DNA from: Symbiodinium sp. CCMP2592
Taxonomy: Eukaryota; Sar; Dinophyceae; Suessiales; Symbiodiniaceae
Length of the DNA stretch: 64,000 bases
NCBI GenBank assembly: GCA_905221615.1
Contig: CAJNDT010003868.1
Location: forward strand, 414,001 to 478,000
Direction: 5' to 3'
Part shown: piece after piece, positions 1 to 64,000 of the stretch
How the letters are laid out: each line of letters begins with the position of its first letter
Numbering within the stretch: position 1 is the first letter of the stretch
The notes under the pieces: generated by a model
Told to the model about the DNA's origin: nothing
The model's database searches: none
The model's input: the letters and a program-made list of their open reading frames with translations, nothing else
Made by a program: the position numbers and the translations under genes

Positions 1-2440
1 GGTTCCTTATTGAGGGTCCCTCCGTTTACCCTTGGACATGGGACTTAGTAAGGGTTCTTAAGGGGCTCCTCTGAAAAGGGATCGAAAGGGTTCCTGAAAG
101 GGATCAACAGGGTTTAGGGTTTAGGGTCTACTTGATTCCGGGGGTTTAGGGGTTCCTTTAAAGGAACCCCCTAGGAGCTCCGTTTTAAAGGAACTCCAAC
201 TGTTGTGCAGTTTGAGGTATCTGAGTTTCTAGAGCTCACTGGACTTTTGGGGTAGGGGTGTACCTGGAGGATCAGGGGTTAGGGTTTAGGGTTTAAGTAG
301 GGTTATAACCCTAGGCATCTAAGGACTCATAAATCAAGGCTTTTGGGCCCAAAGACCATACAATATAAGGCTTTCCGCTATTTTGATTCCCAGGGTAAGT
401 ATTCTAACTGGAGTTATAAGTACCTTTCAGTTTTGCTAACCTAGTTATAACCCTAATTACTAAGTCCCATGATCCTCCAAGTAGGGGGTTTAGAGCTTCC
501 TTTATTTTGGGGGTTTCGGGAGTGAGGGGTTTAGGGTTGAGAGTTTCGAGGGTTTAGGGTGTAGGAGTTTAGGATGGTTTAGGGGTTCAGGGGCTTTGGG
601 TTTAGTGGCTCAGGGTCTACGGTGTCCAGAGACCCCCGGAGCCTCCCACAAAACCCCTTAATTCAGGAATATATACCTGAAGTCATATTAGGCATCCTCT
701 CATCCTTCTGGCTTCCCCTAAAAAAGGGGGCCAAAGGACCCAACAAATTGGGTACTCGGCTCTAGGCCTTTGGGATAGTATAAGTAACTAGTTGTGTAGG
801 GTTGTTGGATATGTAGAGTATATGATCATTGGGTTTAGGGTTTAGGTTTTAGGGTTTAGGGTTTAGGGTATGGTCATTGGGTACTTGCACCGTTGGGGAT
901 AGCACCACACGGACAGCCTTTGCCCGAAGCGTCCATGTGCCCATGTAGTCTGCACTCTGGCCTAAAATAGTCCCTGTGTGCCGACTGCCTTACAGCCAAA
1001 GCATACACTATGGACACGTAGGACAAAGTGCGTGCCGCGAATTAGTATACTTGGAGCCCCAGAAACCAGGCAGGAAGGAAGTACTACTTTCTGAAGGGTT
1101 GAGGATTTCCGTCGTCTGGGGTTATTCCTGCAGGTTCAGGGCGTACACTCCTCCATGAACTGTGACAAAAGTGATTTCTCGAAGACCTTCGGTCACGGTC
1201 TCAGGCTACGCCCTACTTCAGGAGCTTAGTGACCTCCCCTAGGGCTTCGGTTACCTAAATTGTAGGTTGCTAACCATATAACCCAGAGGGTCCATATATA
1301 CTACCATCTTGATTTAGGTCCCCAAATCAGATCCCCCAAAGGCAGATTGCCTACTCTATACTTACATGCTGAGCAGAAAACGATTCAGGTAACCTACCCT
1401 GTGTTCCGGACTTCACACCACGAAGACAACGTGACAAATCTACTGAAGGGTCTAGGTAGAGACTCGAGATATCTTGCTTGAGTTATCAGATGACAGCGGA
1501 TAGATTTTTGGATCCAGAGACTAGGACCCGGAGTAGGCCCTTATTCCCTTTTTTCGGGCTTAGGTTCCCTTATAACCCCCTTTAAACCAAAAAGGGCACC
1601 CTTTTTATTCCTAGGTTACTCTTGGGTCTAGGAGACCCGCATCCTTCTGCAGGTATCAGAAGCTACCTGACTGTAGACCGAAATGCGTGCCTCGGCGGCT
1701 AGTGCTGCCGGATCTGTTGCAGGGTGTACAGCGGACTGCTTAGGGTTGAGACTCGAGGGTTCAGTAGTCCAGGGATCAGGCCTTACTTATTACTTTCTGG
1801 GGTTCATTTAGAGTTTTAGAGTCTGAAGGGTTCAGTATTCAGGGCTTAAGGTGCAGAGGGATTAGGGCTTACTTTCTGGCGTTTACTTAGAGTTTTAAAG
1901 CTCACGTGCGTTGAATGTCCAGAAGATAAATGCTGTGTGCTGCAACCTGCAAGATCGATTCTACAATTCCCGATCCTGTAGGTACTGTCTAACGTACAGG
2001 GTCAAGGCGATAGCCAGAGCTCTTCAAGGAGAGTGGCATGTTCTTGGATGGTTGGGCTTGTTTTGTCGGAGGCAGGGGTTCAGCAATTGTGGGGCCTCAA
2101 CTTATAACTCAGAAATCGTAACCAACTGTGCATGGTTCGTCAGGGGTGAGCCCAATGTGCCAATATGTATAAGTCTAAAAGGAGTCCTGCTGAAAGTCCC
2201 AAAGGGTATCCACCAAACCCGGTCCGAACTGGTGTTCCCAGGCCGGTGAATTGCTCCCACAACTGCTGCCACCATCATCATGCTGTGTACTCTCATAGAC
2301 CCAAGCACCTGCTAATCCTGCCGAAACCCCAAACCCTAAAACCCAAGTGTTCGGAGGAGAAAGGACTAAACCCTAAACCCTAAACCCTGGCATTTCGAAC
2401 CTATTTCGGGTCAGGGCTTTCGGAGTCCTTTTGGGAGGGG
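1..2440. other. Repeat-only stretch
   Basis: Degenerate TTTAGGG/CCCTAAA, GGGTTCCTTTAAAGGGATC-type modules and palindrome copies (254-485, 640-700, 927-1025, 1521-1631). The open frame at 1911-2249 has no splice or composition support. Confidence 0.6.
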
Positions 2441-2451
2441 CTTACCGTGCA

Positions 2452-2510
2452 GGCAGCGCCCGACAGCCAGTTCGACTCCCTGAATGTGCAACGACCTCAG
2501 CGCCCTCTTG
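2452..2510 (+). CDS. Weak exon candidate
   Basis: After acceptor CCGTGCAG the frame reads AAPDSQFDSLNVQRPQRPL. The composition and G/C-rich third positions are exon-like. The donor is uncertain, and a palindromic element begins just after. Confidence 0.3.
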
Positions 2511-2989
2511 GGTTTACCCATAAGCCCCATAGTAGTTCCTTTTTGGGATTACCTTATAGAATTCTACATATGAACCCCAAAAAGGAACTACATATATGGG
2601 GCCTATGGGTAAGGTTCACCAGGAACTCCCAAGTACCCTTCAATAGAGCCCTTATACGGTCCTTAATAGTACGGGGTAGTCGGAGGTCTTGGTGCACATT
2701 TTCCTGGGTCGTCGTTCTTTAGGCACGTGTCTCAAACCCTGAAATTGGAGCCAGGTGAGGCGACCTTTTCGGCTTCGGTGTCGGTTGGTTCGGGTGAAAG
2801 GGGCTGCGGGGGACTGTGTATTTGCTGCAGTGGCCTCCAAGAAAGGCGTGTTGGCATGAGTTGTGTGTTTACCAAGAGGGTCCATATACACTACTATTAT
2901 GGAATTAGGACCCCTGAAACCATAATGAGGATGGTCTTTGGGACCCAATTCCACAATGGTAATGTATATGGACCCTCTGGGTTAGGGAT

Positions 2990-5900
2990 CGTTCTTTCAA
3001 GACTTTCGGGTTTCTGATCTGACCAGAACTAGAACCATCAACCACCCTAACGCCCAAATCCCTAACACCCAACTTCTCGAAACCCACAGCTCGCCCCCCC
3101 CCCCCCGGGCCAAAACTCCGAAAACCGACGTCCCCAAGTCTGGAGACCCTGAGCCAAGCCTGAGCCCCGCCTACCCTAACGCTGCCCCTTTTACCTATCT
3201 CCAAGGCCTGAAAAAACTGCCTCGACCCAGAATTGAAAGGTTTGCCCCCCCTGAATGGTAGTACATTTCTTGATTGCTGCGGCGTCTTATTATGGAATCT
3301 GATAACCATACAGTAGGATATGCAGAAAAAAGGTGCTACCGTCTATTGTCGGGTCTGGCATCGTAGGGTGGGGAAACGGAAGGCCATCCGTTGAACGCTT
3401 AGCCCTTAACAACTCACAGTCGTACCTAACTACCCTTACAGTCTCACCCTCCGGGAAACTGGAAATCCTAAGGCTCAAAAATGCCCAAAAGCTTTATATA
3501 ATATGAAATAACATGGTCTCTAGACCCAAACGCCTTAACATATGAGTCCTTAGAGCCTTCGGGAACTACGCTGAAAGTGCTACAGGGTACCCTCCAAGAG
3601 ACTTGAATGGAACCTGCATAGGCGCCCTTGAAGACTGCTGACCACCCAACAAGGTTTGTTTTGCTCGCAGTGCCCTTCTCCCTAAGGCTCTAAGAACTCA
3701 TATTTTAAGGCTTTTGTGCCTAAAGACCATATTATACAAGGCTTTTGGGCCATTTTGAGCCTTAGGGTCTGGGTTTCAAAGAGGGTTAGTAGGGCTAATC
3801 ATACTTCCCGAACCCCCGCACTAGGCAGCGAACGTCTCCTCTGAGTTAACTGCGAACCCGCAGATCCTAAACCCTTTGCGCGAATCCCAAATCCTAAGCC
3901 CGGAAGTTTGCAAATTCGACGCACTAAAGCCTGAACCCTAAACCCTATAGATCCCTTATAGAACCCCTTTTGGATCTCTTTAAAGGAGCCCCAAAACCCC
4001 AAACCCTATAGATCCCTTATAGAACCCTTATGGATCTCTTTAAAGAAACCCTAAACCCTACAGATCCCTTATAGAACCCCTTTTGGATCTCTGTTACGGA
4101 ACCCTAAGCCCGGAAGTGCTGAAAAAAATCGACGCACCGAAGCTTCAACGTCTGCTATCCTCCCAGGCGGCAGTGTGCGAGGCATTGGGTGTTTAGGGAT
4201 TTAGGGGTTTAGGGGTTTCGGGCCAAGGGGTTTAGGGGTTTAGGGGCTTGGGGGTTTAGGGTTTAGGGCGCCCCAAGGGTCCCTTTAGGGCCCCTTTTTT
4301 GGGTTCATTGAATTAAAGGGATCCATTTAGGGTTGAGGGGTTTAGGGCTGAGGGCACCCCAAGGGTCCAAACTAGCTCAAAATCATATAACCTCCCAAAT
4401 CCTAACCTACGTAGCTATTATCCTAAAACCGAACACCTGATTCCTGGGTCCTTTGAACCCGTAGGGGCAGCTAAACCCTAGATGTTGAACCCGCTTTATT
4501 TCTATGTTCAGGTTAGTTCTGGAGACATAGGACTTTCAGTAGACCCCATAAAGTTGGAAACCTTCCAGGACCCTCCTTGTACCCTCAAATAGGGGTATAT
4601 GGTCCCCAATAAGGGGCATTTCGGGTCTAATAGAGGGTAGACGGAGGGTCTAGGTTGTTAAGGCCAAATAGTGCTGGGGTTCCCTATACATTATACAGTG
4701 GAAGCCTAAAAGTTGGAAGCCCCATAGGCCTCAATAGGATTGAGGCGATGGGGTTTCCAACTTGGGCTTCTACTGTCGATATTTGTTCGGGGGCCCATCG
4801 AAGCAGTTCTGTTCAGGTTTCGAATTGGACCCTAAACCCTAAACCCTAAACCCTAAACCGTATCAATCCCGCACCTGTAAGCCTGGGTCCCCTGCATTTC
4901 GTATAGCAACATTCAACTGAGTAGTCTACAACCCTAAGGGTCCAAGTGCCCAAATAGTAGGGTTTCAAGCTCCAAAAACCACCCAGGGTATGGATTTTGG
5001 GATCTAAAACCCTATTATTTGGGTACTTGGACCCTCTGGGCACACACATCCCAGAGGGTCCACATATACTACCATTATAGGTCCCAAAAGACCATCCTCA
5101 TTATGAATTTTGGGGACCTAATTCCATAATAGTAGTGTATATCGACCCTCTTGGCATGTTTTCCGAGGCCTGTCTAGGGTTGTTTGTTCTTTCTACGTCA
5201 TTCACGCTTCAGGCCTCGGATTCGCTGAATCCTGGGTGCACTCTCCCTCGGCACCATAAGACCCCCCGCCCCCCTGAAAACGATCAGCAACACAACTGTC
5301 ATCAACCATGTTTAGGACACAGGATTTAATTAGCCCCACGCCCATCCCTCCCCGAAAAAGAGCTGTGCAGTTGCGTCGCCGGGGCGGCTTGCAACTGCGT
5401 TCTGAACTGCTTCACAAAAGCCAGTCCCAAACCCAGTGGCAGGAAGCAGATTACTTATTGGCTGTAAACTCAACTTTTCAACTTGTGGGGTTCTTACGAA
5501 GTAATTATTCGACTCGAAGAATTTCAACTTTTGTTTCCTTGGGTGTTGGGCCAGTGAGAGTAGGGCTGGAGGCCTGAGACTTCGCGGCCTTCAGGGTGTG
5601 AGTTTACCCCAAAAGCCCAAAAATAAGTGCACCTAACCCTGGCCATCTAAGGACTGATAAAGGGTTCCTTTAAAAGGGATCTATAAGGGGTCCTTTAAAG
5701 GGATCTATAAGGGGTCCTTTAAGGGGATCTATAACCCTAGGCATCTAAGGACTCATGTATTAAGGCTTTTTGGGCCCAAAGACCATAATATAAGAGGCGT
5801 TTCGGCTCTTTTGATGCCCAGGGTAAGCCCGAAATCCCAGATGCTAAATTTTCAACCCTGTACCAGTATTCGGGCTATGACCCTATCCTAAGGCTCAATA

Positions 5901-6860
5901 TAGCCCAAAAGCCTGATAGAAAAAGGTCTTTAAGCCCCAAAGGCCTTAAACTATGAGTCCTGAGAGCCTTAGAGCTATAGATCGCCTTAAAGGAATCCTC
6001 AAGAACCCCTTATAGATCCTCTCTATGATCGCTTTCAATGAGTCCTTAGAGCCTTAGGGTTCTCCTGGTCTCAACAACACAAGGCCGATGATGTACCGGG
6101 ACCAGTGGCCCTTTCAGTAGGCTTTAAGGGATAAGAATGACAATAAGGATGACAATACTACTAGTAACCATCATCATAATCGTAATAATACATACAACTT
6201 TTAGAGAGAGTGAGAATAAGCATAATAGCAATATGTAGTTGGGCGTTTGGGCTTTAGGTTATAGGTCTTGCGGCAATAGATCCCTTCAGAACGCAGTTCC
6301 TGCGCCAAGGCTCTTCTGGGGCGCGGGAGGGCCCGAAGATGTGCAAATTCATCCCAGGGCCCGGGGACCCAGCAGATGCCCAAAGGGTCCTAGGTTCCTT
6401 TTTGGCATTACCTTATAGGATCCCACATCTAAACCGCAAAAAGGAGCTATAATGGAGCCTATAGGTAATAGGGTCGGGGGCCGAGCAAAAGCAGATTGTC
6501 CTTTGGGATCTTTTCTACTTTCCCCTACTATCCACATACTTTTGGGGCCCAGCAGAAGCCCAAAGGGTCCTAGGGTTTAGGTTTTAGGGGTTTTGGGGTT
6601 TGGGGTCTAGGGGTTAGGAGTTTAGGAAGTATCGTTGTGGTATATTCTACAAGGATTCCGAGTTTGAGGTTTGGGGCCCTCCGGAGGGCACCGCAACATT
6701 CATAGACCCAAAGTCCTAGGTACTGTTATGGGACATACTTGCCCAAAGCAAAATAGTAATTTTTAAACCAGAAACCCTACATTCTACTAAACAGGTACTT
6801 TGGACCCAGCAAAAGCAGATTTAGTGTTCAGGGCTTCGGATTACTGATATACATGTTGAT
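2990..6860. other. Repeat-only stretch
   Basis: Palindromes of families B, C, G, I and M-like hairpins, plus repeated CCCTTATAGAACCCCTTTTGG/GATCTCTTTAAAG modules (3945-4095, 5655-5740). No convincing exon. Confidence 0.55.
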
Positions 6861-6863
6861 ACT

Positions 6864-7085
6864 TTGGTATCCATGGTTACTTCAAAGCCAAGTTCAGGGG
6901 GTCGCGTTAGGTTGCGTGGCCAACACAAGCTACCAAAACGAGATGATGAGCAGCAGACCCTACCACGACGGAAAACGAGCAATGTCCCCAATAACCATAA
7001 GATGTGGCAAAAGACTACATGGGGGTACCAGATGCTACAAGACATAGTTGGTGGCAAACCTTGCCCCGATAACGGCAGTTTTTGA
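6864..7085 (+). CDS. Possible upstream exon (weak)
   Basis: Open frame with RLRGQHKLPKRDDEQQTLPR, then RKTSNVPNNHKMWQ and GKPCPDNGSF, ending in TGA. It precedes the 7364-7522 exon on the same strand, but no splice link is evident. The minus strand is open here too. Confidence 0.25.
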   Translation: MVSMVTSKPSSGGRVRLRGQHKLPKRDDEQQTLPRRKTSNVPNNHKMWQKTTWGYQMLQDIVGGKPCPDNGSF

Positions 7086-7363
7086 CTATAAGAGTCCATG
7101 TTAATATAGTACATGCTTTTGCATCCAAGCAGTGCGTACATAGTATGTACATTTAAACCAAAGTATACACTATATGATGGACTATATGGGTACATGGACC
7201 CTTAAGGACTCAACGTTAGTTTGTGAATGTCTTGGAGCAGTGCTCACGGGTTGGATCGAGGTTCATATATGATCGTGTCTTGCTTCTGAGCTGGTGCACA
7301 ATGCCCTTAACCCTAAACCCTAAATCCTAAGCCTTCATTGTCGTATATACTACCTTACATGAG

Positions 7364-7522
7364 AGCATGTGCATGGATCCGGAGGGGAAGCTTGCAGACG
7401 TCGGGGTACTCTACATGTGCATCCGAGACGCACCCTTCCATTCGTGCGTGGTCGTCTCGGAGCTGGGCTGGCTTGCAGTGGAAACACAGGCCAAAGCCAC
7501 GCCTGGAGTAATCAACCTCTAA
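7364..7522 (+). CDS. Terminal exon, unknown protein
   Basis: Frame reads (S)MCMDPEGKLADVGVLYMCIR, then DAPFHSCVVVSELGWLAVET and QAKATPGVINL, and stops at TAA (7520-7522). Third codon positions are G/C-biased, unlike the surrounding repeats. It may begin at acceptor TACATGAG|AGC (7364) or be read from ATG 7367. Upstream exons were not identified with certainty. A three-copy tandem repeat begins seven bases after the stop. Confidence 0.55.
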   Translation, partial: SMCMDPEGKLADVGVLYMCIRDAPFHSCVVVSELGWLAVETQAKATPGVINL

Positions 7523-7528
7523 GAAGTA

Positions 7529-7745
7529 GGGTATGAACCTAAACAATTGGTATATCTACCGTTTTTAGGTGCCTGGCTTACTCTATGCAAACCCCTGAAA
7601 CAAAGGATATGAGCCTAACATGTACCTGTTTTTGGTAATTACCTTGGTTACTCTATGCAAACCCGTTAAGGAACGGATATGAGCCTATGCAATTGGTACA
7701 TGTACCTTTGTTTAGATACCTTGCTTACTCTAAGCAAGCGGTGTG
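7529..7745 (+). repeat. Three-copy tandem repeat, period about 70-76 bp
   Basis: Copies start with GGTATGAACC or GGATATGAGCC at about 7529, 7605 and 7675. Each contains TTACTCTATGCAAACCC-type sequence and a variable AATTGGTAcATGTACC block. Confidence 0.8.
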
Positions 7746-7749
7746 TATA

Positions 7750-9000
7750 AAATCGTTTTCACATACCTTCTGACTCAGGGAACCACTTTGCACGCAGACC
7801 CGCCAAAAAGATTGTCCACGAGGATTTTTTGTCACGTGTCAAGCACGTGATACTTTAAGGAAGGTTTGCCTTACCCCGGGCTCCAGTCCCCTAACCCCAA
7901 ATCTCCAAGTAGATCATAATCAGATACTTTCCCCAAATCCCAACCTACATAACTACTATCCGAAGACTGGGTCCTTTGGACCCTTAGGGTAACCCCCAAA
8001 ACCCACCGAGTCTCCGAGTAAACGAGGAAGGAGGGTTCTCCAGCCGCGTCGATCTGGGCCGCGGCCTCAATTGCTGAAGTTGAGCGCTCAGGGTTGCAAG
8101 CGCAAAACCCTTTCTGGGTTCTGGCTAAGGGGTTTAAGTTAAATTACCATAATAGGGATCTATAGTAAATATTTGTGGTTTCCTTGTTATGGTAACTTAA
8201 ATTAAATTCCTTACCAAGAACCCAGCTCCCAGCGCCGAGACCTCCACATAACTCCGAGATCTTGGAGGCCCGCTAGAGCCCCCCCCCGAACTACCTGTTG
8301 CTAGCCCAAGCATTCATTGCGAAATGTCCATGTGCCCATGTAGTATATACTTTGGCCCTAAAGTCTTTATATGTAAGGATTACAAGCCCAAAGATGTCAG
8401 AGTAGATACTACATATGTGCATGGACCCTTATACCCTAAACCCTAAACTGTGTTCGACTAGGAAGTCTTCACGAACCCTTTACATGATTATGGAAGTCTG
8501 TTTCTACAACCACAAGGATGGGGTTTTGTGGGACCTAAACCCCAAACCGTAAATCCCCATCAGTACCCTAAACAACCAAACCCTACTTTTTTGTAGGTTC
8601 TTAATAAAACCCCTAGTATGGAATTTATCGGGACCCTACAAAAAGTAGGTTGTGGTGGGTTAAGGTGCATAGGGGAGCATTGCCAGACCCAGCTGGTCGA
8701 AGAGCTAATAAAACCATAAGCAACCCGAACGAGGTTTAGAGTTTGGGGTTTAGGGTGTAGGCTTCAGACTGTGGGATTTAAAGTTTAGGGCTTTGATTGT
8801 GTTTAATATTTCGAGTTCCCCAAGGATCCAAGCGACCTAGTTAATAATGAGTGAGGTGCACGGGCGTACTTTTGTGGTTACTGTTATGACGATTAAGCCA
8901 GGTACTTGGACCCTTATGGTGAATAGAAGGATCCTTGTAATCAGAGCCCCCCCCAACCTCCGATATTCTGCATCTCCAGGCCCCAAACCCCGAAGCTTAG
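7750..9000. other. Repeat-only stretch
   Basis: Contains a decayed family C copy (7900-7992), lone palindromes at 8130-8230 and 8575-8668, a family D copy (8325-8414) and TTTAGGG-like sequence. No gene seen. Confidence 0.55.
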
Positions 9001-9640: not shown

Positions 9641-10140
9641 ACACTCCCTTCACTCAGACCTAAACCCCAAACCCTAAACGGCCCTAAACCGAAACCCTAA
9701 ACCCTAAACCCTAACCCTAAGCCCTAAACCTTCTACTCTCTTCCGAAATACACGTAGCCGCCAGCTGTTTCTCCGAATCCGAAATACCTAGACACTCCGG
9801 ACAGGCTCCCATCCCTTTTCCACCGAGACTCCAAGGGCCCAAAGGAACCAACAATTAGGGCTCCTTTAAAGACTTCTATACGGTTTCTTTTACAGGGTTC
9901 CTCTAAGGGCGACTATAAGGGTTCGATCATATGGGCCATAATAATTAGGAACCTGGGTTTTAGGATATAGTTATGTGGGTAAGAATTTTGGAGAGCGTAT
10001 GATTATTCGATACTTGGATCCTTGGACGTTCTTCGCAACATGCGGTCTCGTGGTGGTTCGAGCCAAACTCGAGCCCTTGGGAATTCGCATAAGGTACGAA
10101 TCCTGCCAACAAAGCGGGGGCCCTGCTCTTAGGATCTTAC

Positions 10141-10640: not shown

Positions 10641-10750
10641 CCCCAAGGGTCCAAGTACCTAATAATCATACACTCTCCGAAATCCTAACCTACGTAACTA
10701 CTATCCTAAAACCGAGTACCTAATTATTGGGTCCTTTGGACCCTTGGGGG
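10641..10750 (+). mobile_element. Palindromic element, family C
   Basis: CCCCAAGGGTCCAAGTACCT...GTCCTTTGGACCCTTGGGG with the core CCTAACCTACGTAACTACTA. Others: 11704-11812, 45269-45380, 53700-53794, 34660-34746, 39103-39205; decayed at 4374-4470, 7900-7992, 9950-10025 and 48426-48510. Confidence 0.85.
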
Positions 10751-12541
10751 TAGGATAACAGAAGCAAAGGAGAGCATGACCGCAAGTCAGCGCACACGAT
10801 GAAGTCACACCTTTGAAGTTCAGAGGGGAACCGCAATATTGGCAGGTCGTCGTTTGGGCTTTTGGACAGCTTGTTTGGTATCACTTGATGCAGTCGGGCT
10901 TAACTGTTTATCTCCGGAAGAGACAACCTCTTTCAGGACGATGTAAAGACCGGAAAAGAAGGTTTTGTACGGTCCAGGAGGGGCTTATCACGTCTCGCCA
11001 GTTGAAATTCACCACCGTCAGGCAAGGCCTTTCAAGTACTTCCCCAAGCCCTAAACTCTGAAACTCCTGTTTCGCATTGCTCTTTGTCCGGCATAATTAG
11101 AAGACGCCCAGCCAGTGTCCCAAGTGAGAAGTCCCAGCACTAAGGCTCCAATTCACTCGTATTCTCGGGAGGGTGTTTGGGTGGGCCGTGCTAGACTTGA
11201 GACATGATGGATTTCGGCAATGTTGCCCCGAAGGGTTAAGGGTTCAGGTAAGGATCATTTTCCTTGACTAGCACAGGAGCCCTGCGTGAAGCCGTAGCAC
11301 TTGGCCACTTGGCAAAAGTTTCCGCCTCGCACAACGAAAGCCCTATACCTTCGCTCCTAAACACTACCTATAGTCTCCATTGCAGTTCCTTTGTTTCGTT
11401 AACCAAGGTCTTTATTATAGCATCCTAACCATAAAACTGGTTAAGCAAAAAAGGAACTACAAAGGCGACTATAGGCAAGCCCGATAATCCTGAAGGCTGA
11501 GCCCTAAACCCTGATCCCCGAAACCTGAACCCTAAATCGCTATGGATCCCTTTTTGAACCCGTTAAGTAGCCTATTAAGGAACCCTTTAAGGAACCCTGT
11601 GGACCCTAAACCCTAAGCAGGCCTCAGTGCTTACCTCCGATGCGAATCCAGGCCTAGCTGAGTTGACTTGGTTGACGGAAACTTCGGTTTGACCTAGGCC
11701 GTTACCCCAAGGGTCCGAAGGGCCGAATAATTAGGTACTCGGTTCTAGGATGGTAGTTATGTAGGTTAGAATTTGGGAGAGTATATGATTCTTGGGTACT
11801 TGGACCCTTGGGGTTAGGCTTTGGGGTTTAGGGGTTTAGGCTTTTGGGACTGGGTTTAGGGTTTCAGAGTTTAGGGGTCTGAGGGTTTAGGGTTGAAGTA
11901 CCCAACACCTTCGGTGTATTCGGGTTTAGTGCCAGGGAATCCAGAAAAACTGCTGTGTGCTGGGCTATTGAGGCTCCATTGGTCCACCCTGCTTCGGACT
12001 TTTAGCGTCATAAACTCTGGGGTGTTTTGAGTTAGGGTTAGCGTTTGCGGCTGTTGTTGCCTACAGACTCTCTATCAGTGTTGGGATCGTGGCTCGCGCA
12101 GGGCACCTTGCTTGCATGCCGCCTACAGCCCAAAACCCCGAGACCTTCGTTTCAACTGCCCTTCCGAAAAAGCTTAGACTCCCCTAAACCCTTACCCGAA
12201 ACCCTATGCCAATGTGTCTGTTCAGACCTCGCCACAGGGCACCCTACAACTCAGATCCTGCAACGGGCCCTAAGCCCTAAACCCTAAACCTAAGCTCTAA
12301 ACCCTAAACCCTAAAAACCCTAAACCCTAAGCTCTAAACCCTAAACCCAAAAACACTGAACCCGGGTAACCCAGAGACTCCAATACCCCTTAATTTCAGG
12401 AGTATGCCCTTAAGTCCTACCATTATAATTAAAGGTATACTCCTTAATTAAGGGGTTTTGGAGTTTCTGGGCACGCCGAAGCCCTCGGGTCAGTGCAGGT
12501 ACAAGATGCCAGGACGCAGCAGGCCGCGTGAGCTTGGAGGG

Positions 12542-13167: not shown

Positions 13168-13291
13168 TACTTGGAAGGGCAGGGGACTTAGTAAGTAGGA
13201 TATAAGTAGGGTTATAATTGGGGTAACTCTATTTAGGGTACATATAACTCTACTTATAACCTACTTACTAAGTCCCCTGCCCTTCCAAGTA
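13168..13291 (+). mobile_element. Palindromic element, family A variant (GGCAGGGG)
   Basis: TACTTGGAAGGGCAGGGG...CCCCTGCCCTTCCAAGTA. A near copy at 34746-34869 is flanked by TG instead of TA. Confidence 0.8.
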
Positions 13292-18100: not shown

Positions 18101-18119
18101 AAGCCCAACCCACTTTTGC

Positions 18120-19935: not shown

Positions 19936-20260
<325 letters not shown>

Positions 20261-44039: not shown

Positions 44040-44125
44040 GGGTGTCTGTTTTCTGCTTTAGGAATCATTGTTATGATTTGGGGAAGTATTCACTATGGAC
44101 ACTTTCGGAATAGCTTTACTTCCAG

Positions 44126-44194
44126 GTCTGCGGCGCCGGCATCTGCATGGAGCTGAAGAGCGGACCGACCGCATTCACCCGCCGGCGCAATTCG
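44126..44194 (+). CDS. Internal exon of 69 bp
   Basis: TTCCAG|GTC...TCG|GTGCTA encloses 23 codons, VCGAGICMELKSGPTAFTRR then RNS, in G/C-rich codons. Sits between two palindromic elements. Confidence 0.5.
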
Positions 44195-49710: not shown

Positions 49711-50162
49711 GTATTCAACACGACAGCTTGGCAGCACAGTCCTGAATACTAAACCGTGCTGAATCCAGAACCTGTGGCTGCGTGCAGGTGGCTGGATTGA
49801 GTGGCTGTGTGGCTGGATGGAGGGATGGAGAGTATCGTCCGCCCCCACACTCCTGACGTCCTCAAGGAACCCTTAAAGGAACCCTCATAGAACCCCTAGT
49901 GTTTAGGATCACCAGTACGATTTTGCTATGCTCGCAAGAGTGCTTGAGCTCCCGGAATGTTTCCACACTTCTTTCGTTGCTTGATAGAACCTACCTGAAG
50001 GCTCAGGGGCCCAAACAGGATATACTTTGGCCGTCAAGTACTTCCTATATAGGTACATTGGCCCAAAGTATATACTAATTTGGATACATGGACCCTTAAA
50101 CCCTAAACCCTAAACTCCTATAGGAATCCTTATAGGATCCCTGAAAGGAACCCCTATTTGGG

Positions 50163-52696: not shown

Positions 52697-53862
52697 GTGA
52701 GTAGCTGCAGCACTGCTAAACCCAAAGGGCCCAAGCCCAACGGTTGATGATATAAATCCTGCATTACCTTATAATGACCCTAAACTATGGGAACTATGGT
52801 ATATTCCTTATTATGGGTCATGCAGGATTTATATCATCAACCGAAGTATCATTATGGTATATACTCATAGGGTATTTTGCGGGTCTAAGTATATGCCATA
52901 AATGACACTTGGACCCTTTGGGAAAGGTCAGGGGCGCCCAGCCCGGCCGGGTCACGACGTGATATCGGAGATTGAACGATTCCAGAAAGCTTCCGTGCAT
53001 CGTTGTACTTAATTTCCAACCTGATATCGAGGCATGATGAGATTGGACCACAGTTGCGTCGTTGTTACGATCAAGCTGTACTGCGCTGCATAGGAGCAGT
53101 ATTGGAATTGTTGAGACTGCTGCCATATATTCCCTGACACTCAACGCACCGAAACTATTAACCCGAACTGCAGAGTTACTTTCACCTTCTTGTTTGCCTT
53201 GTTCATATGCTAAGCGTCTCCTCATGCGCGTTCAGGCTATTCATGCCCAGCGCGAAGCCCTGAACCCTAAACCGCCCCAGGCACCGGCTTTGGGCCAGAG
53301 ACCATGACCTTCAAGAATGTACCTCCAGGTCGGTGTTATCAGAGCGGTTTGCAGTCGGGCGTTGAGGGCTTAGAGTCTAGAGGCCTCAGCCTTTAAACCA
53401 GGCCCCGCAACCGTATAGTTTAAACCCTAAAGGCTTTAAGCGGTGGTTTTGGGTTTTATGGTCTTTTGACGTGGGGGACGTTCCTGGTATATGTATGCAA
53501 AGGGACTTCCACAGTTCGTGCCAGAATCTCATGAGCTACCGTTTAGGGACCATGGGTGCGGGGTTTTGGGTTCTATGCCCCTGCCCCCTACGTGTCGGAG
53601 CATCGTCATTCCGCTGGTGGTTGGTGCTTGTTTGTTGGTATTCGGCGGCCTTGGCTTGTCATTAGGCCGGTAACCCCAGGCGTTAGGGTTTAGGGTTTAG
53701 GGTATAGGCCTAAACCACTAGGTACCTAATATCCAGACACTCTTTTCATCCTCACACCAAGTACCTACTTATTGGGTCCTTTGGACCCTTGGGGTAATCT
53801 AGAACCCGGAGAATGGTCAATGTTTTTTTTTGTTGGTCTCGGCTTTTTGTTGTTATAGATAT

Positions 53863-54457: not shown

Positions 54458-54573
54458 GATCCTAACGGTTGATGATATAAATCCTGCATTACCTTAAGGA
54501 CCCTAAACTATGGGAATTATGGTATATTCCTTCTTATGGGTAATGCAGGATTTATGTCATCAACCGTTGGATC
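54458..54573 (+). mobile_element. Palindromic element, family K
   Basis: AACGGTTGATGATATAAATC...GATTTATGTCATCAACCGTT. Second copy at 52740-52843. Confidence 0.85.
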
Positions 54574-54869
54574 CTAAGGCCCTATGCCCCTATGGGTCCC
54601 TATGATTCAAGCATACACTCCTCAGAGAGGCGATTCTTCAGATGGCGAGTTCGTAATGATCCCGAAGGGTCTGCTTACGGGGGAGACTTCCCTAAAGCAT
54701 GTATGAGTAATTCCTAATATGGACACCCTACATTCTACAATAGAGGTACTGAGGACTTTTTGACCATCGTTCTCTAAGGCTCCATGTACCTATGTGGTAT
54801 ATACTTGGGCCTCGAAGTAACTATATAGGCACCCCTGCACGTATGGGCTTATGGTTCAATCCGTAGGTT

Positions 54870-54980: not shown

Positions 54981-55578
54981 TTCTAGAATGAAAGACACGC
55001 TCAGTGCCATGTGCAGCAGGGTTCGGGGACTTAGTGCATAGGTAGCATGTGTATGATATACCAATACCCCCCAGTGATGCTATCCTAATTATGCACCTTC
55101 AAAGCCGCAAGTTGCAAGGTCTGAAGGCTAAAACCTTACATTACATACATAGCTTCAGGAGTGGCCCACTGGTTTCGCTGGCCTTGAGATAAAGATTATA
55201 TTCTCAAGTTCCTGAATGCTCGAAATCTATTTGGCATGAGTCACAATTAAGTGGCTTCTGCAAGTGAAAGTCCGCACCACGCTAACGGTCAACCGTCAAT
55301 CCTAAACTCGAACTCCGAATAGCCAGACGACCCAAGAGGGTTCATATATACCCATGATACGGACTTAAACCCCCAAATCCGTAATAAGAATGGTGTTTAG
55401 GGGCCTAATCCCTAGACCCTCAAACCGTGCAGCTCTAATCTCAAACTCGAAATCCGGAACCCTGGTGAGCATGTTCTCCTTGGGACTTAATTCCCTAAAC
55501 CCTAAACCCTAAACCCTGAACCCCTAAAGCCCTGAACCCTGAGTTCCAGAATCACAACCCAAGGCTCCAAGTATCCAA

Positions 55579-55714
55579 TACTTGGAGGGTCGCGGGACTT
55601 AGTAAGTAGGTAGTAAGTAGACTTATAAGTACCCTAAAAGGGACCCTAATTGGGGTTATGGTACTTATAAGTCCCTAAAATAACCAGTTACTAAGTCCCC
55701 CGACCCTCCAAGTA
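55579..55714 (-). mobile_element. Palindromic element, family A, nested in a family C element
   Basis: Intact A copy with TA flanks. It interrupts CCAAGTATCCAATA / TCATACACTCTCCAAA, which is continuous in family C copies such as 10641-10750. Confidence 0.8.
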
Positions 55715-56241: not shown

Positions 56242-56377
56242 TACTTGGAGGGTCGGGGGACTTAGTAACTGGTTATTTTCCGGACTTATACGTACCATAA
56301 CCCCAATTAGGGTCCTTTTTAGGGTACTTATAAGTCTACTTACTACCTACTTACTAAGTCCCCCGACCCTCCAAGTA
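56242..56377 (+). mobile_element. Palindromic element, family A, no insert
   Basis: TACTTGGAGGGTCGGGGGAC to CCCCGACCCTCCAAGTA, very close to 50163-50298. Confidence 0.85.
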
Positions 56378-57188
56378 GGCAGTAGTACTCAGGAAACGCA
56401 GACTCGCCCTAAAGGCACACCCGCGAAACAACAAAACCATCCATCTACACACAACTCAACCAAGCTCAAAGCACAAATCCCTAAAGCCTCAAAGCCGAGG
56501 TGTCAAGCCGGAGTTAGAGAAAATCGCGAAAGCGTGGGCTGTGGCTGGTTTTCCGGGCAGCCGGTGGGTGAACAGCTTGTGATTTTTGCTTAAAGCTTTC
56601 ATTCAGATTTCAGGCATGAGGTAGGGTTTGACATGCTGTTCTTTTAAAGCCCTAACCCCTGAACCTCTAAGCCCTAAACCTTAAGCCCCAAAGCGTAAAC
56701 CCTACGTCTTTGCTATGTTTTATTGTCCTTTAGATTGCTTTACAGCCCAGAGGGTCCATGCACACCACCATTGTGGAATCAGGTCCCTAAAACCGTAATA
56801 GGGATGGCTTTTGGGGGACCGAATTCCATGATGGTAGTATATGAGGAGCCCTCTACCCTAAACCCTAAACCCATGTAGAGCTCTTGCGCTCCCAAATAGT
56901 AACCTACATAACTACCATCCCCCTAGGGGTCCATGCACCCGAATAATATGTACTTTGGGCCCAATGTGCCTACGGGTATTCGTAATATCCCTTTATAGCA
57001 CTGTACCCTTGCAGAGCCCTTCTTGCGGGTATTATAAGAGCTGTATATGGGTTTAGGGTTTAGGGGAGAAGGCTCCTCATACACTGCCATTATGGAATTA
57101 GGTCCCCCAAGAGACCATCTCTATTGTGGGTTTAGGGACCCGATTCCATAATGGTAGTACATGAAGATCCTCTAATATAGATACTTAA

Positions 57189-58009: not shown

Positions 58010-58105
58010 GAGCTCGCACCTGTCAGCGAGCGGAGGAGGGGCGGGAGGGAAGAGGGGAGGCGAGGGGGGGGGAGGGGCGGGAGGGGGAGGAAGGGGGAGG
58101 GGGTG

Positions 58106-58139
<34 letters not shown>

Positions 58140-58145
58140 CGGGGG
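58010..58145 (+). repeat. G-rich tract, second copy, next to the left TIR
   Basis: Near-duplicate of 57330-57420, extended into a run of more than 30 G. It directly precedes the Mutator-like element. Pro- or Gly-rich ORFs across it are artefacts. Confidence 0.8.
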
Positions 58146-58154
58146 CGACCGGGT

Positions 58155-58257
58155 CGAAGTACAACCAAACGGGTGAAATTACAACCACACGGGGGAAAAC
58201 ACAACTGCATCATGCTTGTGGGCTTGCCCAAACGGGAGAAATTACAACTGGCTATTG
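58155..58257 (+). repeat. Left candidate TIR of the Mutator-like element
   Basis: Tandem degenerate units of about 19-20 bp with core TACAACC-n-n-AYGGGTGAAA, starting right after a poly-G tract. It matches the reverse complement of 62147-62262 in unit order and spacing. Confidence 0.55.
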
Positions 58258-58388
58258 CGGTGCCTTTCTAAGTTTGGACATTCTCGGCGCAAAACCCATG
58301 GTACAGCCTTAAGGCCTCAAGACTATTTTTGGAGAACGGTGGTTGTGATTCGCCCCTTCTCTTCGCGCCCAAGCACCGTTGGTGTCCA

Positions 58389-58755
58389 GGGCATGTAAGC
58401 AATACTTAACATGATTAACCCGGTTTGTATGCTTTCGGGCTTGTAAAGGAGAAGGGCATGTAAGCAATACTGAACATGATTATTTCGGTTTGTATCCTTT
58501 CGTGCATGTAAGTGAGAAAGGCATGCAAGCAATACTTAACATGATTATCCCGGTTTGTATGCTTGCGGGCATGTTAAGGAGAAGGGCATGTAAGCAATAC
58601 TCAACATGATTGCTTCGGTATGCCTTCGTGCATGTAAGTGAGAAAGACATGCAGGCAATACTTAACATGATTATCCGGGTTTGTATGCTTTTCCAAGTGC
58701 TAAAGTCCTGTAGACATTACTTTAGTGATTATTTCGGCTTGTATGGTTTTCGGTT
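58389..58755 (+). repeat. 65-bp tandem repeat with alternating unit types
   Basis: Five full units and a decayed sixth start at about 58389, 58454, 58519, 58584 and 58645 (spacing 65, 65, 65, 61). Each contains GCATGTAAGCAATACTTAAC. Units alternate between a type ending in CGGGCnTGTwAAGGAGAAGG and one ending in CGTGCATGTAAGTGAGAAA, so the higher-order period is about 130 bp. It lies between the left TIR and the 3' end of the transposase gene. Confidence 0.85.
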
Positions 58756-58810
58756 CTGTTAATACTACAGACCTCCAAGGAAAACCGTGATGACCAGGAT
58801 CTGTTTCCAC

Positions 58811-61648
58811 TCAACCGCCTTTGCGCTGCAAAAGAACGGTGTCGGAAATGCTCAGCACATCACGCACAGCTTGGTTCGCATACACATCTGTGGTTTCGAG
58901 CTTACCGTCGGGCAGGAAAGAACATGCCTTCAGCATATGATCCTGCACAGCAGCAGCTGGAGCACCGAAAGACTGGAAAAGCCTGGAAAGCTCCGTCCCC
59001 AAGGTTACACTAACATCTTCTACGACGATCTTGTTGACGGGATCTGTGGTTTTCAAAACTGGGTTCCCATCCGCTGAAACACTGTACAGAACACGCACGT
59101 TCAACACGGCCGCTGTCTGGGACCCTTCTGCATCTATGTCGCTAGGCACTATCTGTGGTGCGGCATTCCATGTCGTTTTGCGACGACAACGTCGCAGGTC
59201 GTGCAACACGGGAGGCGCCGATGTTTTGTGGCCTGCTGCCTTCACAGTGGTTTCCTGACCCATTGCCTTGTTCTTGGCCTTGGCCTTGCGAAGCTGCTCG
59301 CGCAAACTGGTGATGAGGAGATCCTTGTCATCTGCTTTCAGCGGCACGGATCCGCGGCCAGGTGCCTTGGGCTTGTTACCCCGGCCGAAGGCGCCCAATG
59401 GAGTAGAGTCCAACTCATCTGGCACCTTGCATTTTCCCAAGTGCATGTTCAAGGCCAGCACGTGGAAGCACCGCTTGGCAGCTGGGAACGCCGGACATGT
59501 GCAAAAGGCCTGGTCTCCTCGAAGCCTTGGGTTCTTTATATAGAATGTTTAGACAAGCAGGCCTCACATGCGTTGTAATTAGGGTTAAGGGTTGAGGATT
59601 TAAGGTCAGCCAACCATCTTATTGTATCATAGATGGCCAAGAGACCCAAAGATGCGGTGTCCCGACCCGCCATGGAATGTAAGCAAAATCTCCACAGTGG
59701 TTTCCTGCCCGCCTTCCTGCGCCACGAAGGCACGAACAACCCGTTCAGCTTGGCGTTGACTCAGCGGTCCACGGTGGCAGACACCAGAGTCGTCCCCATC
59801 AGGGTCTTCCCCACGTGGTAGGCAGATGTAGAACCTACGGCGCCAGCTGCTCGAGTACTTCCCAAGTCCCAACCCTCGGCCCTATAAACGCCTAAAGGTC
59901 TCAAGCCCCCAAAAAAGAACGACATGGAACTTGCACCAAACCCCCAAAATCTTGACTTGCACAGGTACAAGGAGCTTTCGAGTGTCAAGAGTGACGGATC
60001 GGATCTTGTCCGTGCCAAAAAGACTTTGAAATGAGGCCGCCTTCTGCCAAAGCTGAGCGTCCACATGCCGGGGAGCCGTCGGATCAAAATGAGCCTTTGT
60101 GGCCACCTCCACTTGCTCCAGCATGAAGTTGAGCGTCTCGCCCACACTGCCGACTACGTTGCCAGCGTCCTGCCGGGTGTACTTGATGGTGCTCTCTGCA
60201 GCGTTGTTCGTGGAAGGCGCAGATGCAAGATCTGCAGCGACAGCCAAATGCCAATCACCCACTTTGTCCAGCCATTGCCGAAAGAAGCTGCTCACCCAGT
60301 TGTAGTTGCGACCAAGCTTGTCCTTCCACGCAGTCTTGCCTTCCAAACCATCTTGACACCACTTCGCCTTGACCGCATTGGCCCTAGAAACGAAATCCTC
60401 CTGAGATTGTGCCTGTCTCATGAGGTCAATGTGCAGGCTGATCTCCGACCATGCCACTTCTTTCTCATCTTTGCTGCCTGCGACAAGTGTACACTATGCT
60501 GAGCGTCCTCAGAAACCTTGCTCGATCCCAGTAATCCGAAAGACCGAAACCGCTAACACCTCGCAACGAAAGTCTTATAGGGTTTCGGGATGTTTAGGGC
60601 TTAGGGTTCAGGGTTTCAGGCTTCGGGTTTGGGTTGGCTCGCCTTTGAAGCGCTTGTAAAAGCTGTCTCGTGCTGCGTGCTTGACATGGAAGTAGCACAT
60701 GAGATTCGTGGCATCAAAAGCTGACTTGAGCGCAGAACGGTAGGCTGGCTCCGCATCACTCATCGAAAAGGGTGCCGACACTTTGCTCTGCGCAAGTCTC
60801 GCAGTTGACTGAGCAAATGCTGTCAGTGTGGACACCATCCGTTCGGATTCCATGTCCGACGTCAAGGCAAGGGCGCAGAGCCCGAACTCCCCAGCGGGGT
60901 TCAAGCAACCCAGCACTGTCAAGGGCCAGCCCAGCAGATTGAATTTGAACCCGCCATCAGCTGCCACGACACACCCTGCAGCACAAGCTCGAGCAAAGCG
61001 GCGCTGCAATGCCGGAGTGGTTGCAAGGATGCTGATCTCGGACTTGGGGCCCTTCCTGACGATGCTGCTGTGGCACCAGTAAGCCTGCGATTCTACTTCG
61101 GGAAGCTTGTCGCACTGCTGGACTGCTCGGCGCAAGTCTCCGACTGTGCGTCTTCCATACCAGGAAGCACAGAGCCCCTTGCGCAAGTTCTGCACTTGCT
61201 TCAGCTGCGCCTTCTGCACGGGTTGTTGTTTGTTCGTACGCCCTGACCTCAAGGCCAAACGCGGCCGCGAAGTGGCTTTCTGCGCAAGAGCCGCCTCCAG
61301 CACCTTCCGCTCTGCAAGGCTTTCGAAACCACGTGTCCCAGTTGTCTTTGCACCAGCTATGTGAGATCTCCAAAGCGATGCATGCTGGTAGAGCTCTGCT
61401 GTCCCATCCGCCTGTTCCTTCAACACTGCCCTCCACGTGCAAGGTGGTGTACTCTGAGCCAGCCTGCACGCCAGAAAAGTAATCTTGCCATCCTTCTTGA
61501 TGGCACGACCACAGTGTGAGCGACAGTGCTTTCCTGAGCCCAGGTCTTGTAAACCCGCAGATCTGCTGGCATAGCTGCCTACAAAGCTATCATACAATGC
61601 CGCTTGGAAGGAACCTGGTGCAGCTGCTCGCCCTGCTGGGCGTTTCAT
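58811..61648 (-). CDS. Mutator-like (MULE) transposase, four exons, SWIM zinc finger
   Basis: Cut-and-paste DNA transposase of the Mutator-like superfamily. Exons by splice signals: 61648-60643, 60477-59937, 59834-59646, 59525-58811. All phases agree and give 816 codons before the stop. The N-terminus has a Cys-rich stretch (C42, C46, C61, C70), perhaps a DNA-binding zinc module. The acidic triad is inferred as D231 (in VVAADGGFKFN), D298 (in FSMSDAEPAY, followed by CYFHVKH) and E430 (in STNNAAEST). A SWIM finger follows at C587-x-C589...C598-x-H600. The C-terminal region after the SWIM finger is unassigned. Introns are 165 bp (GC donor), 102 and 120 bp; the first and third contain CCCTAAA-like sequence. 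The ATG at 61648 gives MKRPAGRAA. Mutator-type D-D-E, CxxH and SWIM motifs are established for the superfamily; residue assignments are by eye. No frame-breaking lesion was seen, so the gene may be young. Confidence 0.82.
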
Positions 61649-61784
61649 GGCAGCTATTTCTGATGAACCTGTAGCCCGAAAAGGTCACAGCGAAGTTGTC
61701 AAGGAATCCTTTGGCATCCCACCTTCAAAATCCGACGCCCGAGCCACTCAACAAAACCCAAAACATCCCCAAAACCCTTAGCCC

Positions 61785-62140
61785 CTTTACATCTACTCAA
61801 AAAAAGCCTCAAAGACCCTTTACATCTACTCAAAAAAAGCCTCAAAGACCCTTTACATCTACTCAAAAAAAGCCTCAAAGACCCTTTACATCTACTCAAA
61901 TATAGCCCTCAAAGACCCTTTACATCTACTCAAATAAAGCCTCAAAGACCCTTTACATCTAGCCTCAAAGACCCTTTACATCTACTCAAATAAAGCCTCA
62001 AAGACCCTTTACATCTACTCAAATAAAGCCTCAAAGACCCTTTACATCTACTCAAATAAAGCCTCAAAGACCCTTTACATCTACTCAAATAATCAATAAA
62101 GCCTCAAAGACCCTTTACATCTACTCAAACAAAGCCTGAA
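61785..62140 (+). repeat. 33-34 bp minisatellite
   Basis: About ten copies of a unit with core GCCTCAAAGACCCTTTACAT followed by CTACTCAAA(A/T)AAA, with one truncated and one slightly expanded copy. It lies between the transposase start and the right TIR, so it is probably part of the element. Confidence 0.9.
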
Positions 62141-62146
62141 AGACAC

Positions 62147-62262
62147 CAGTTGTATTATGACCCATCTGGTTGTATTTTCCCCTATCTGAACCAATTTTTA
62201 AAGATTTCAGTTGTATTATTACCCATCCGGTTGTATTTTCACCCATCTAGTTGTATTTCGCC
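62147..62262 (-). repeat. Right candidate TIR of the Mutator-like element
   Basis: Read on the + strand it contains repeated GGTTGTATTTTCACCCATCT-like units. The reverse complement aligns with 58155-58257. It ends at a C10/G-rich homopolymer block (62270-62330). Confidence 0.55.
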
Positions 62263-62682
62263 TTATTCTCCCCCCCCCCGGGGGCAGGGGGGGGGGGGGG
62301 GGGGGCGGGGGGAGGGACTCGGGGGGGCCGCACCAGCGGTTAAGAGGTGAAGATGGATATTTAAAGGTATAGTACAGGGTAGTTGGGATTCAAGGTGAAA
62401 CCCTAGCAACATATGTCAGAAGGACATCCTCCAAAGGAGCCCAAGATGCATCGTTAAACCCTAAACCCTAAACCCCTTAGCCCTAACCCCTAAACCCTTA
62501 AGCCCTAAACCTTAAGTTTTAAGGTGTGGCTTGAATCTTGGGATGTAGTGTTTGATGCACTAGGGTTGGATGAGGGGTTCAAGAACCCACCTACACATGG
62601 ACGCTTCGGGTAAAGTCTGTCTGTTTGGTGCTCAAGGGTCCAAGTGCCCAAGTACCCAAGAATCATATACTCTCCAAAACCC

Positions 62683-62790
62683 AAAGGGTCCAAATTACCT
62701 ATACAGTAGAGTCTAGGGTTTCTATATTAGGAGTTACTATTTTGATTTAGGGAAGTACCCCCCGTAACAGTACCTCGGACCCTTTGGGTT
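62683..62790 (+). mobile_element. Palindromic element, family E
   Basis: CCCAAAGGGTCCAAATTACC...GTACCTCGGACCCTTTGGG. Others: 6705-6810, 16480-16575, 36001-36110, 40456-40562, 44537-44642, 54660-54765. Confidence 0.85.
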
Positions 62791-62954
62791 ACAATCTTGA
62801 AGCTTTGCCTAGCCCCTCCTAGTTGCCTCCTTCAGATTCCAAGCATAACGCTCCATGCACCTGTATAGTATCTACTCGGTTTACAAGGGGTACCTAGATT
62901 TGTATTTTAAGATTTACATAAGTCTATACTACAGAGGGACATGGAGTCCCATTG

Positions 62955-63090: not shown

Positions 63091-63704
63091 TCATCAATCT
63101 TTTTCGCTGCTTATCTAGGGCTTAAGTTCGAGTTTAAGTTATGCACGTGACACCAGTTTGGGCCTTCACCTTTACAAGACCTGATCATCTACCCGACACA
63201 TGTAGAGTGTTGCACTCTGTATGGCCATGTACATCTCAGTTCATGTCGCCCCCCATGGAGCTTTCCATTAAGGAATATCGCTTAAACCATAAGGGGATTC
63301 ATATTATGATTTAAGGTATATTCCTGAATTAAGGGTATTGGGCTCTGTGGGAACCTGCATCCGTACCCCAAAAGGCAGCGTACAACAATTCTTTGAGCAG
63401 CCCAAGAGACGAAACGATGCATAGCTCAAGGTTGCCTTTGCCCAAGGCCCTTTGTCCACTAAACCCGTACACATCTAAACCGATCTGAGTTACAAGCCGC
63501 TAAACCTTCGAAGCCGTAAGCTGTTAAGGGTTTTGGGTTAACAACCCTAAACCTAAACCCTATAAGCCCAAAACCCCAGACCAACAAGACGACGCAACAG
63601 CAGAACAAAACACGCATTGAACCTGCAGTGCCCAGTTTCCTGAAACGGAATCCCAAAGTGCCCCTAAACCCTCAACCCTGCACCCCAAGCCCTAAAGTGC
63701 CCAG

Positions 63705-63776
63705 ATTGCCTTCGAGTGCATGATTCCCGTGGAGTGCCGGCACCCCTCACGGGTATGGAATGTGGTGAACATCCAG
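63705..63776 (+). CDS. Internal exon of 72 bp
   Basis: GTGCCCAG|ATT...ATCCAG|GC encloses IAFECMIPVECRHPSRVWNV then VNIQ, 24 codons in G/C-rich usage. It ends at a GC donor, or earlier at CGG|GTATGG. It belongs to a gene that continues beyond, or within, the last 220 bases, which are otherwise CCCTAAA-type repeat. Confidence 0.55.
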
Positions 63777-63789
63777 GCTCTCCACCCTG

Positions 63790-64000
63790 CACCAAACGCT
63801 AAGTCCCTGACCCCCTACACCCCGAATCCCTGAACCCCAAAACCCTATAACCCTAAACTCCCTAAACCCTAAAACCCTAAACCCCAACCCCAAAACCCTA
63901 AATGCCTCAACCCTAAACCCTGAACCGTAAAACCCTCAACCCTGGATCTCCCCCGAAACCCTAAAACGACAGATCCTTCAACCTAAACCCCCCAAACCTC
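63790..64000 (+). repeat. Degenerate CCCTAAA array at the window end
   Basis: Irregular ACCCTAAA/ACCCTGAA units run into the end of the window, broken by short unique segments. Not a clean telomere. Confidence 0.8.

Follow-up and report, generated by a model that had tools for sequence, protein, structure and literature searches.

Palindromic elements with common ends in a Symbiodinium genome: probably a new lineage of miniature inverted-repeat transposable elements, with families largely of common ancestry

What are the short palindromic elements that recur, with nearly the same ends, along a 64,000-nucleotide stretch (hereafter the window) of the genome of Symbiodinium sp. CCMP2592 (contig CAJNDT010003868.1, positions 414,001 to 478,000)? 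The original prediction, made from the letters of the window, described several families with shared ends and different interiors, and proposed that one trans-acting machinery mobilizes many unrelated hairpins. We find that the superfamily consists of miniature inverted-repeat transposable elements (MITEs), that is, non-autonomous cut-and-paste elements. Very probably, these dinoflagellate DNA transposons belong for the most part to one ~109-bp lineage of diverged families, moved in trans and leaving 3-bp TWA target duplications (W, A or T). They probably form a lineage of MITEs that is new but of a familiar kind, PIF/Harbinger-like by target duplication and with families largely of common ancestry. 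The host is a dinoflagellate, since a 21-nt stretch of the dinoflagellate spliced leader occurs in 429 exact copies in the assembly (reversed control, 0).

The shared ends are abundant. We use the letters B to H as labels of our own; families B to E of the original prediction, which came without coordinates, were recognized by their end sequences. The genome searched was the 1.098-Gb assembly (5,383 contigs), and motif counts were controlled with the same motifs reversed. In the window, the left end CCCMRAGGGTCC occurs 17 times and the right-end mirror GGACCCTYKGGG 13 times (total over both strands, 30; reversed control, 0 + 0), confirming that near-identical ends are present dozens of times in 64 kb. 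Genome-wide, the strict end motif occurs 10,460 + 10,569 = 21,029 times on both strands (reversed control, 392 + 387 = 779), so that it is ~24-fold denser in the window than in the genome at large (30 in 64 kb versus 21,029 in 1,098 Mb). Both ends lie 70 to 100 bp apart, as 12-bp terminal inverted repeats (TIRs), at 2,595 places in the genome and at none in the reversed control.

The borders of the elements show target duplications of a fixed length. These were scored in 357 kb of examined DNA, including 30 loci picked for similarity to family B, with identical flanks dropped. An exact 3-bp direct repeat is found at the borders of 47 of the 74 two-ended elements with distinct flanks, against a mean of 4.6 and a maximum of 12 in 2,000 shuffles of the flanks, and the longest exact flank repeat peaks at 3 bp (46/74). 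A second, alignment-based set of families B to G gives a 3-bp duplication in 47 of 80 (B, 27/35; C, 7/18; D, 5/8; G, 6/14; E, 1/4; F, 1/1). The duplicated triplet is TWA: counting both strands of the 47 sites, T, A/T, and A occupy the three positions in 55, 84, and 55 of 94 cases, respectively. Across the genome, flanks are direct TAA/TAA in 216 cases and TTA/TTA in 215 (431 together), versus 9 that are inverted (TAA left, TTA right).

Empty sites provide further evidence of insertion. An uninterrupted paralogous site with at least 75% ungapped identity within 12 bp of the junction exists for 4 of the 59 insertions that show a duplication (2 bp in family H, otherwise 3 bp), simple and telomere-like repeats being excluded. 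These are a B element inside a family-H copy (locus L033), a G element (L002), a D element inside another palindrome (L043), and the D element at 44,529 in the window. The other 55 have no uninterrupted site passing this filter within the 357 kb examined. Together, terminal inverted repeats, a fixed-length duplication, ~109 bp without coding capacity, high copy number, and empty sites identify the superfamily as MITEs. The proposal that these elements are mobile and non-autonomous, and several of them hairpins, is thus borne out by 3-bp duplications, precise empty sites, and thousands of dispersed copies. Tandem or segmental duplication, an alternative source of the shared ends that the original prediction had itself raised, was rejected: among 18 family-B copies inspected, only those in L029 and L030 have flanks in common. 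The elements would be cut at their outer CCC/GGG ends by a transposase acting in trans and then pasted into a short T-W-A target, yielding the duplication, motif, and empty sites that we observe.

Do these shared ends enclose unrelated cores? The family consensuses that the original prediction had suggested building now number seven, six of them of 109 to 110 bp (B, 110 bp; C, D, E, G, and H, 109 bp) and one, F, of 90 bp. Among the first 50 genomic two-ended elements listed, 27 are exactly 109 bp long, and the median divergence of copies from their consensus is ~8 to 11% in B, H, C, G, and D. We compared consensus with consensus, ungapped, over 40 nt per arm beyond the 12-bp end. In-register matches, all best at offset 0, amount to 29/40 for B-E, 27/40 for G-E, 24/40 for both B-G and G-F, and 22/40 for H versus the D right arm. 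Arm comparisons among B, C, D, E, G, and H exceed z = 3 in 14 of 60 cases and z = 4 in 11 of 60, whereas none of 216 comparisons of superfamily arms with nine other palindromes of the window exceeds z = 3 (F stands outside this control). Among themselves, those nine exceed z = 3 in 3 of 136 comparisons, and never z = 4. Gapped alignment also links the C left arm to E and the D left arm to G, weakly, under a simple-shuffle null that gave z = 4.0 to one other family; relatedness therefore rests on the ungapped test and the palindrome control, not on the gapped arm test.

Thus, the cores cannot all be called unrelated, because B, E, and G stay in register for 40 nt. The description of the interiors as different is only partly right: the arms of B, E, G, and F, and those of H with the D right arm, agree in register past the 12-bp end, and C and D are linked more weakly. 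Common descent with drifted cores, which had been named as the competing explanation, accordingly fits B, E, G, and F as in-register relatives, and C and D less well. Since several families are such relatives, common descent explains much of the similarity of the termini. B, E, G, and F would be descendants that diverged while keeping the end and, mostly, the length; for C and D this is less clear. From shared ends by themselves, one cannot conclude that a single enzyme serves unrelated elements, and a register-aware comparison of cores alters that reading.

It is unlikely that unrelated MITE families acquired independently, or converged on, ends recognized by the same transposase (one enzyme, many cores, as in the original prediction). 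Such a history would agree with the near-identity of the 12-bp ends, given how little C and D resemble B in register, and with the 3-bp duplication found in every GGGTCC/GGCTCC type with enough copies (B, C, D, and G). It does not agree with the in-register relationship of B, E, G, and F well past the ends (palindrome control without F), with the gapped ties of the C and D left arms (weak null), or with six consensuses of 109 to 110 bp.

Measured against dinucleotide shuffles, the hairpins of the consensuses are stable (B, z = -17.4; H, -16.5; G, -12.0; C, -7.0; D, -5.3). Mismatches between a family's own two consensus arms number, of 40, 6 in B, 6 in E, 7 in G, and 3 in H, while those between the families B, E, and G number 11 to 20. 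At positions where either arm differs between two families, both palindromes are intact in 12/19 cases for B-G, 9/17 for B-E, and 9/19 for E-G, and in only 3/14 for G-F. As the two arms of a B, E, G, or H consensus resemble each other more than the arms of any other family, these four families regained their symmetry after they had diverged; F, C, and D show no such renewal. Possibly, one arm was copied in inverted form, or hairpin formation was selected for in the source element.

Several observations weigh against a single lineage that is moved in trans and keeps renewing its arms. The exact 3-bp repeat is absent in 27 of 74 element pairs, through decay or misplaced ends. Family F (90 bp) is one copy, and the E consensus comes from 5 copies. 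The best offset is 0 in only 23 of 84 arm pairs, with a mean z of 1.7 over all 84. The ties of C and D to the other families are weak, and neither is palindromic (arm identity over 50 nt, 0.38 in C and 0.54 in D), the C arms differing at 34/40. With 18/40 mismatches, the D right arm is nearer to H than to the D left arm (26), as the F right arm is nearer to G (16 to 17) than to the F left arm (21). Mirrored mutations at the copy level show no clear excess (B, 7 versus 6.3 expected; H, 7 versus 3.3; G, 4 versus 5.9). Family H has duplications of 2 bp, not 3 bp. A genome search limited to three protein families revealed no autonomous element carrying these ends: PF13359 (Harbinger DDE, DDE_Tnp_4) gave 0 matches and 0 first-look candidates (control positive in 1 of 14 genomes), and PF01609 (IS4/IS5-like) gave no match (control positive in 9 of 14 genomes); the third family, PF02992, is considered below.

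Co-evolution of the arms among individual copies was rejected: mirrored double changes number 18, where ~15.4 would be expected. Of these, 15 are complementary, which subfamilies could cause. This set includes duplicates of two B copies and one H copy (41 and 20 rows versus 39 and 19 distinct). Given no clear excess of mirrored changes, inserted copies seem to decay independently, with renewal taking place in source elements.

Family H, a sister family, bears directly on the proposal of one trans-acting machinery. This family (CCCAGAGACTCC) forms a 109-bp palindrome; it has the CCCAGAG of its ends in common with family B, and its arms resemble the D right arm. A 2-bp duplication flanks 13 of its 16 copies, and a 3-bp duplication none of the 16. 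Because the other families have 3-bp duplications, one identical machinery for all CCCAGAG-ended elements is doubtful: the similar ends must be read by two transposases, or else the stagger has changed in a related enzyme. For the GGGTCC/GGCTCC-type families, a single transposase type is likely, as their common duplication length and target preference fit one type. The proposal is thus likely to hold for these families and is weakened by H.

A tentative and rather doubtful extension would unite these observations. One lineage may keep regenerating near-perfect ~109-bp palindromes, the two arms altering in concert while families diverge, with source elements re-symmetrized by inverted arm copying during repair, or with only hairpin-competent elements being mobilized, and with inserted copies decaying independently; branch H, with arms like the D right arm, would have shifted from 3-bp to 2-bp duplications. 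If so, the same ends would be served by transposases of different stagger, of a type unrecognized by current protein profiles in dinoflagellates.

What kind of enzyme could move these elements? A 3-bp TWA target duplication is a hallmark of PIF/Harbinger transposons, and our elements resemble PIF/Harbinger (Tourist-like) MITEs in being ~100-bp non-coding TIR elements with this duplication and target preference. Judged from duplication length and target alone, PIF/Harbinger-like is the likeliest type for the enzyme, with chances about even. Unlike in those systems, there is no PF13359 match in the genome, and the likeness concerns duplication and target, not a comparison of the CCCMRAGGGTCC end. 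PF02992 (CACTA) also has no match in the genome, an uninformative result because its control was positive nowhere. PF10551 has 11 matches, including the window's own Mutator-like element (MULE), so the profile search works in this genome. A Pfam search of ten of the 335 listed open reading frames (ORFs), two of the ten from the window, revealed no transposase. A coding element with the same ends, which the original prediction had suggested seeking, has thus not come to light in the three-family scan. Elsewhere, a shorter pattern retrieved 5 viral and 78 prokaryotic stretches, none of which (0/83) resembles a family consensus at E ≤ 0.01.

Two kinds of candidate partner were considered within the window. 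Pairs of orphan ends at 1282-7989 (6.7 kb) and 43891-44726 (0.8 kb), which have a 3-bp match, were judged to be due to chance, with no null computed. The MULE was rejected as a partner, its surroundings carrying, by eye, poly-G/poly-C tracts (~58.1 and ~62.2 kb) and not superfamily ends. The transposase ORFs of this MULE lie at 58100-62200, with the PF10551 match at 60,608-61,648 on the minus strand. Five of the 11 PF10551 matches, the window's included, fall in a 358-aa open frame, which suggests that these MULE copies are recent.

Similarity to the seven family seeds identifies 52 superfamily copies and fragments in the window, covering 4,354 bp (6.8%). They are listed below, with identities (percentages) and consensus spans from alignment to the seven family seeds or consensuses.

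635-698, plus: family H fragment, 81% identity, consensus 1-59
727-834, minus: family C, decayed, 69%, consensus 17-103
869-898, minus: family C fragment, 87%, consensus 1-30
1282-1326, minus: family B half element with CCCAGAGGGTCC end (end motif and seed similarity)
2872-2981, minus: family B, full length, 3-bp duplication TTA
4357-4466, plus: family C, full length, 3-bp duplication GCA
4932-5040, plus: family E, full length, seed of family E, exact duplication absent
5050-5154, plus: family B, full length, 3-bp duplication CAT
6707-6807, minus: family D, nearly full length, 86%
7895-7989, plus: family C, decayed full length, 3-bp duplication TAA
8327-8372, minus: family G fragment, 80%
9831-9859, minus: family C fragment, 90%
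9940-10025, minus: family C, partial, 86%
10641-10749, plus: family C, full length, 3-bp duplication GTA
11705-11813, minus: family C, full length, 3-bp duplication TTA
12370-12471, plus: family H, full length, exact duplication absent
16298-16392, plus: family B, partial, 88%
16475-16574, plus: family D, nearly full length, 81%
16893-17000, minus: family B, full length, flanks GTAC/GTAT, exact duplication absent at assumed boundary
34672-34747, plus: family C, partial, 86%
36000-36108, plus: family D, full length, exact duplication absent
36756-36783, plus: family D right-end fragment, 93%
39021-39048, minus: family C fragment, 89%
39122-39204, plus: family C, partial, 93%
40203-40311, plus: family H, full-length palindrome, exact duplication absent
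40457-40564, minus: family D, full length, flanks match over 2 bp only
40666-40700, minus: family D fragment, 86%
40977-41091, plus: family B, full length, exact duplication absent
42995-43086, plus: family G, decayed, 72%
43621-43694, plus: family G, partial, 78%
44050-44089, plus: family D fragment, 80%
44529-44642, plus: family D, full length, 3-bp duplication ATA; host repeat has an uninterrupted copy in locus L013
44954-45051, minus: family H, nearly full length, 85%
45267-45378, minus: family C, full length, exact duplication absent
46580-46681, plus: family B, nearly full length (end motif and seed similarity)
48421-48496, minus: family C, partial, 77%
49357-49462, plus: family G, nearly full length (seed similarity)
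49998-50098, plus: family G, decayed, 75%
52050-52099, minus: family E fragment, 80%
52435-52544, plus: family H, full length, 2-bp duplication GA
52844-52922, plus: family F, main part; left end at 52,721, with family M palindrome 52,741-52,843 in between
53748-53794, plus: family C, partial, 91%
54675-54762, minus: family D, partial, 83%
54774-54836, minus: family G, partial, 83%
55332-55412, minus: family B, decayed partial, 74%
56746-56857, minus: family B, full length, exact duplication absent
56889-56920, plus: family C fragment, 88%
57070-57158, plus: family B, partial, 81%
62640-62685, plus: family C left part, 89%
62680-62788, plus: family D, full length, exact duplication absent
62847-62946, plus: family G, decayed, 70%
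63267-63351, minus: family H, partial, 85%

The superfamily had been annotated across the entire window; copies are indeed abundant, but unevenly spread. No copy starts at 16,894-34,671, and the largest start-to-start gap, 17,779 bp, was not reached in any of 20,000 random placements. The 17.7-kb stretch free of superfamily copies (17001-34671) has 9 of the window's 16 ORFs of at least 150 aa, several of them overlapping or low-complexity.

That the elements are Introners, i.e., intron-creating transposons, is highly unlikely. The host is a dinoflagellate, and these are short TIR elements with short duplications; Introners of Symbiodinium microadriaticum have TIRs and 4-bp duplications, and other Introners recruit splice sites from their flanks, according to the passages we consulted of Gozashti 2022 (PMC9860276). 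Our consensuses, however, have C as their first letter and GGG as their last three; neither GY nor AG stands at the boundary, so that they carry no splice sites of their own (flank-recruited sites lie outside this test). Their duplications are 3 bp (2 bp in family H), not 4 bp, and no copy starts in the stretch with 9 of the 16 longer ORFs, which are reading frames and not gene models. It is scarcely credible that they are non-mobile regulatory or RNA hairpins (e.g., small-RNA precursors) under selection: their consensus hairpins are stable against dinucleotide shuffles, but the 3-bp duplications, the empty sites, the dispersal in thousands of copies with ~8 to 11% median divergence, and the much poorer folding of C and D than of B, H, and G all speak against this.

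The MITEs described here nonetheless share their algal group, short non-autonomous TIR form, and short direct repeats with dinoflagellate Introners and MITE-like introns, as portrayed in the excerpts used here. In the portion of Farhat 2021 (PMC7789003) drawn on, 10% and 31% of introners in two Amoebophrya strains are assigned to putative MITE families; dinoflagellate Introners are also the subject of Roy 2023 (Curr Biol), as summarized in part in PMC11453091. Within the sections of the literature considered, short dinoflagellate TIR elements are treated mainly as Introners (PMC7789003, PMC9860276, PMC11114475, PMC11453091, and PMC10666404). Among the matches listed for the exact end strings in open-access literature, none is a transposon paper by title and start of abstract, repeat libraries being outside this comparison. 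A clearly bounded lineage, present in thousands of copies, with duplication length and target measured, a near-fixed length, and arms that co-evolve in several families, offers a clean case for asking how palindromic MITEs stay palindromic, and both of its ends can serve as bait for finding the transposase.

Other palindromes of the window, namely a TA-flanked CTTGGAGGGTC type and a GGTTGATGATAT type, are like the superfamily in size and hairpin form. They differ from it in their ends and flank patterns, and in the 0/216 in-register comparisons above z = 3. The TA-flanked type, TA-CTTGGAGGGTC...GACCCTCCAAG-TA, is a second abundant palindrome of ~114 to 136 bp (13168-13291, 33103-33216, 55579-55714, 56242-56377, and others). 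Its flanks hint at a Tc1/mariner-like MITE, TA duplication being a guess here as TA lay inside the search pattern. The palindrome GGTTGATGATATAAATCCTGC (family M at 52741-52843) also occurs at 54464-54568. At 54,464, this palindrome is flanked on either side by GGATCCT (~7 bp); at 52,741, it sits inside the family-F element.

Telomere-like TTTAGGG/CCCTAAA repeats occur in 301 copies in the 64 kb, scattered, densest at 44 to 52 kb, and well inside the 678-kb contig. Lastly, one sampled locus (L018; G000:C500:1-10000) is unlike the other sampled stretches, with a GC content of 0.356 and an ORF with a weak match to recombination endonuclease VII, and is possibly foreign or viral. It nonetheless contains a C-type element flanked by a 3-bp duplication, as well as one occurrence of the strict motif.

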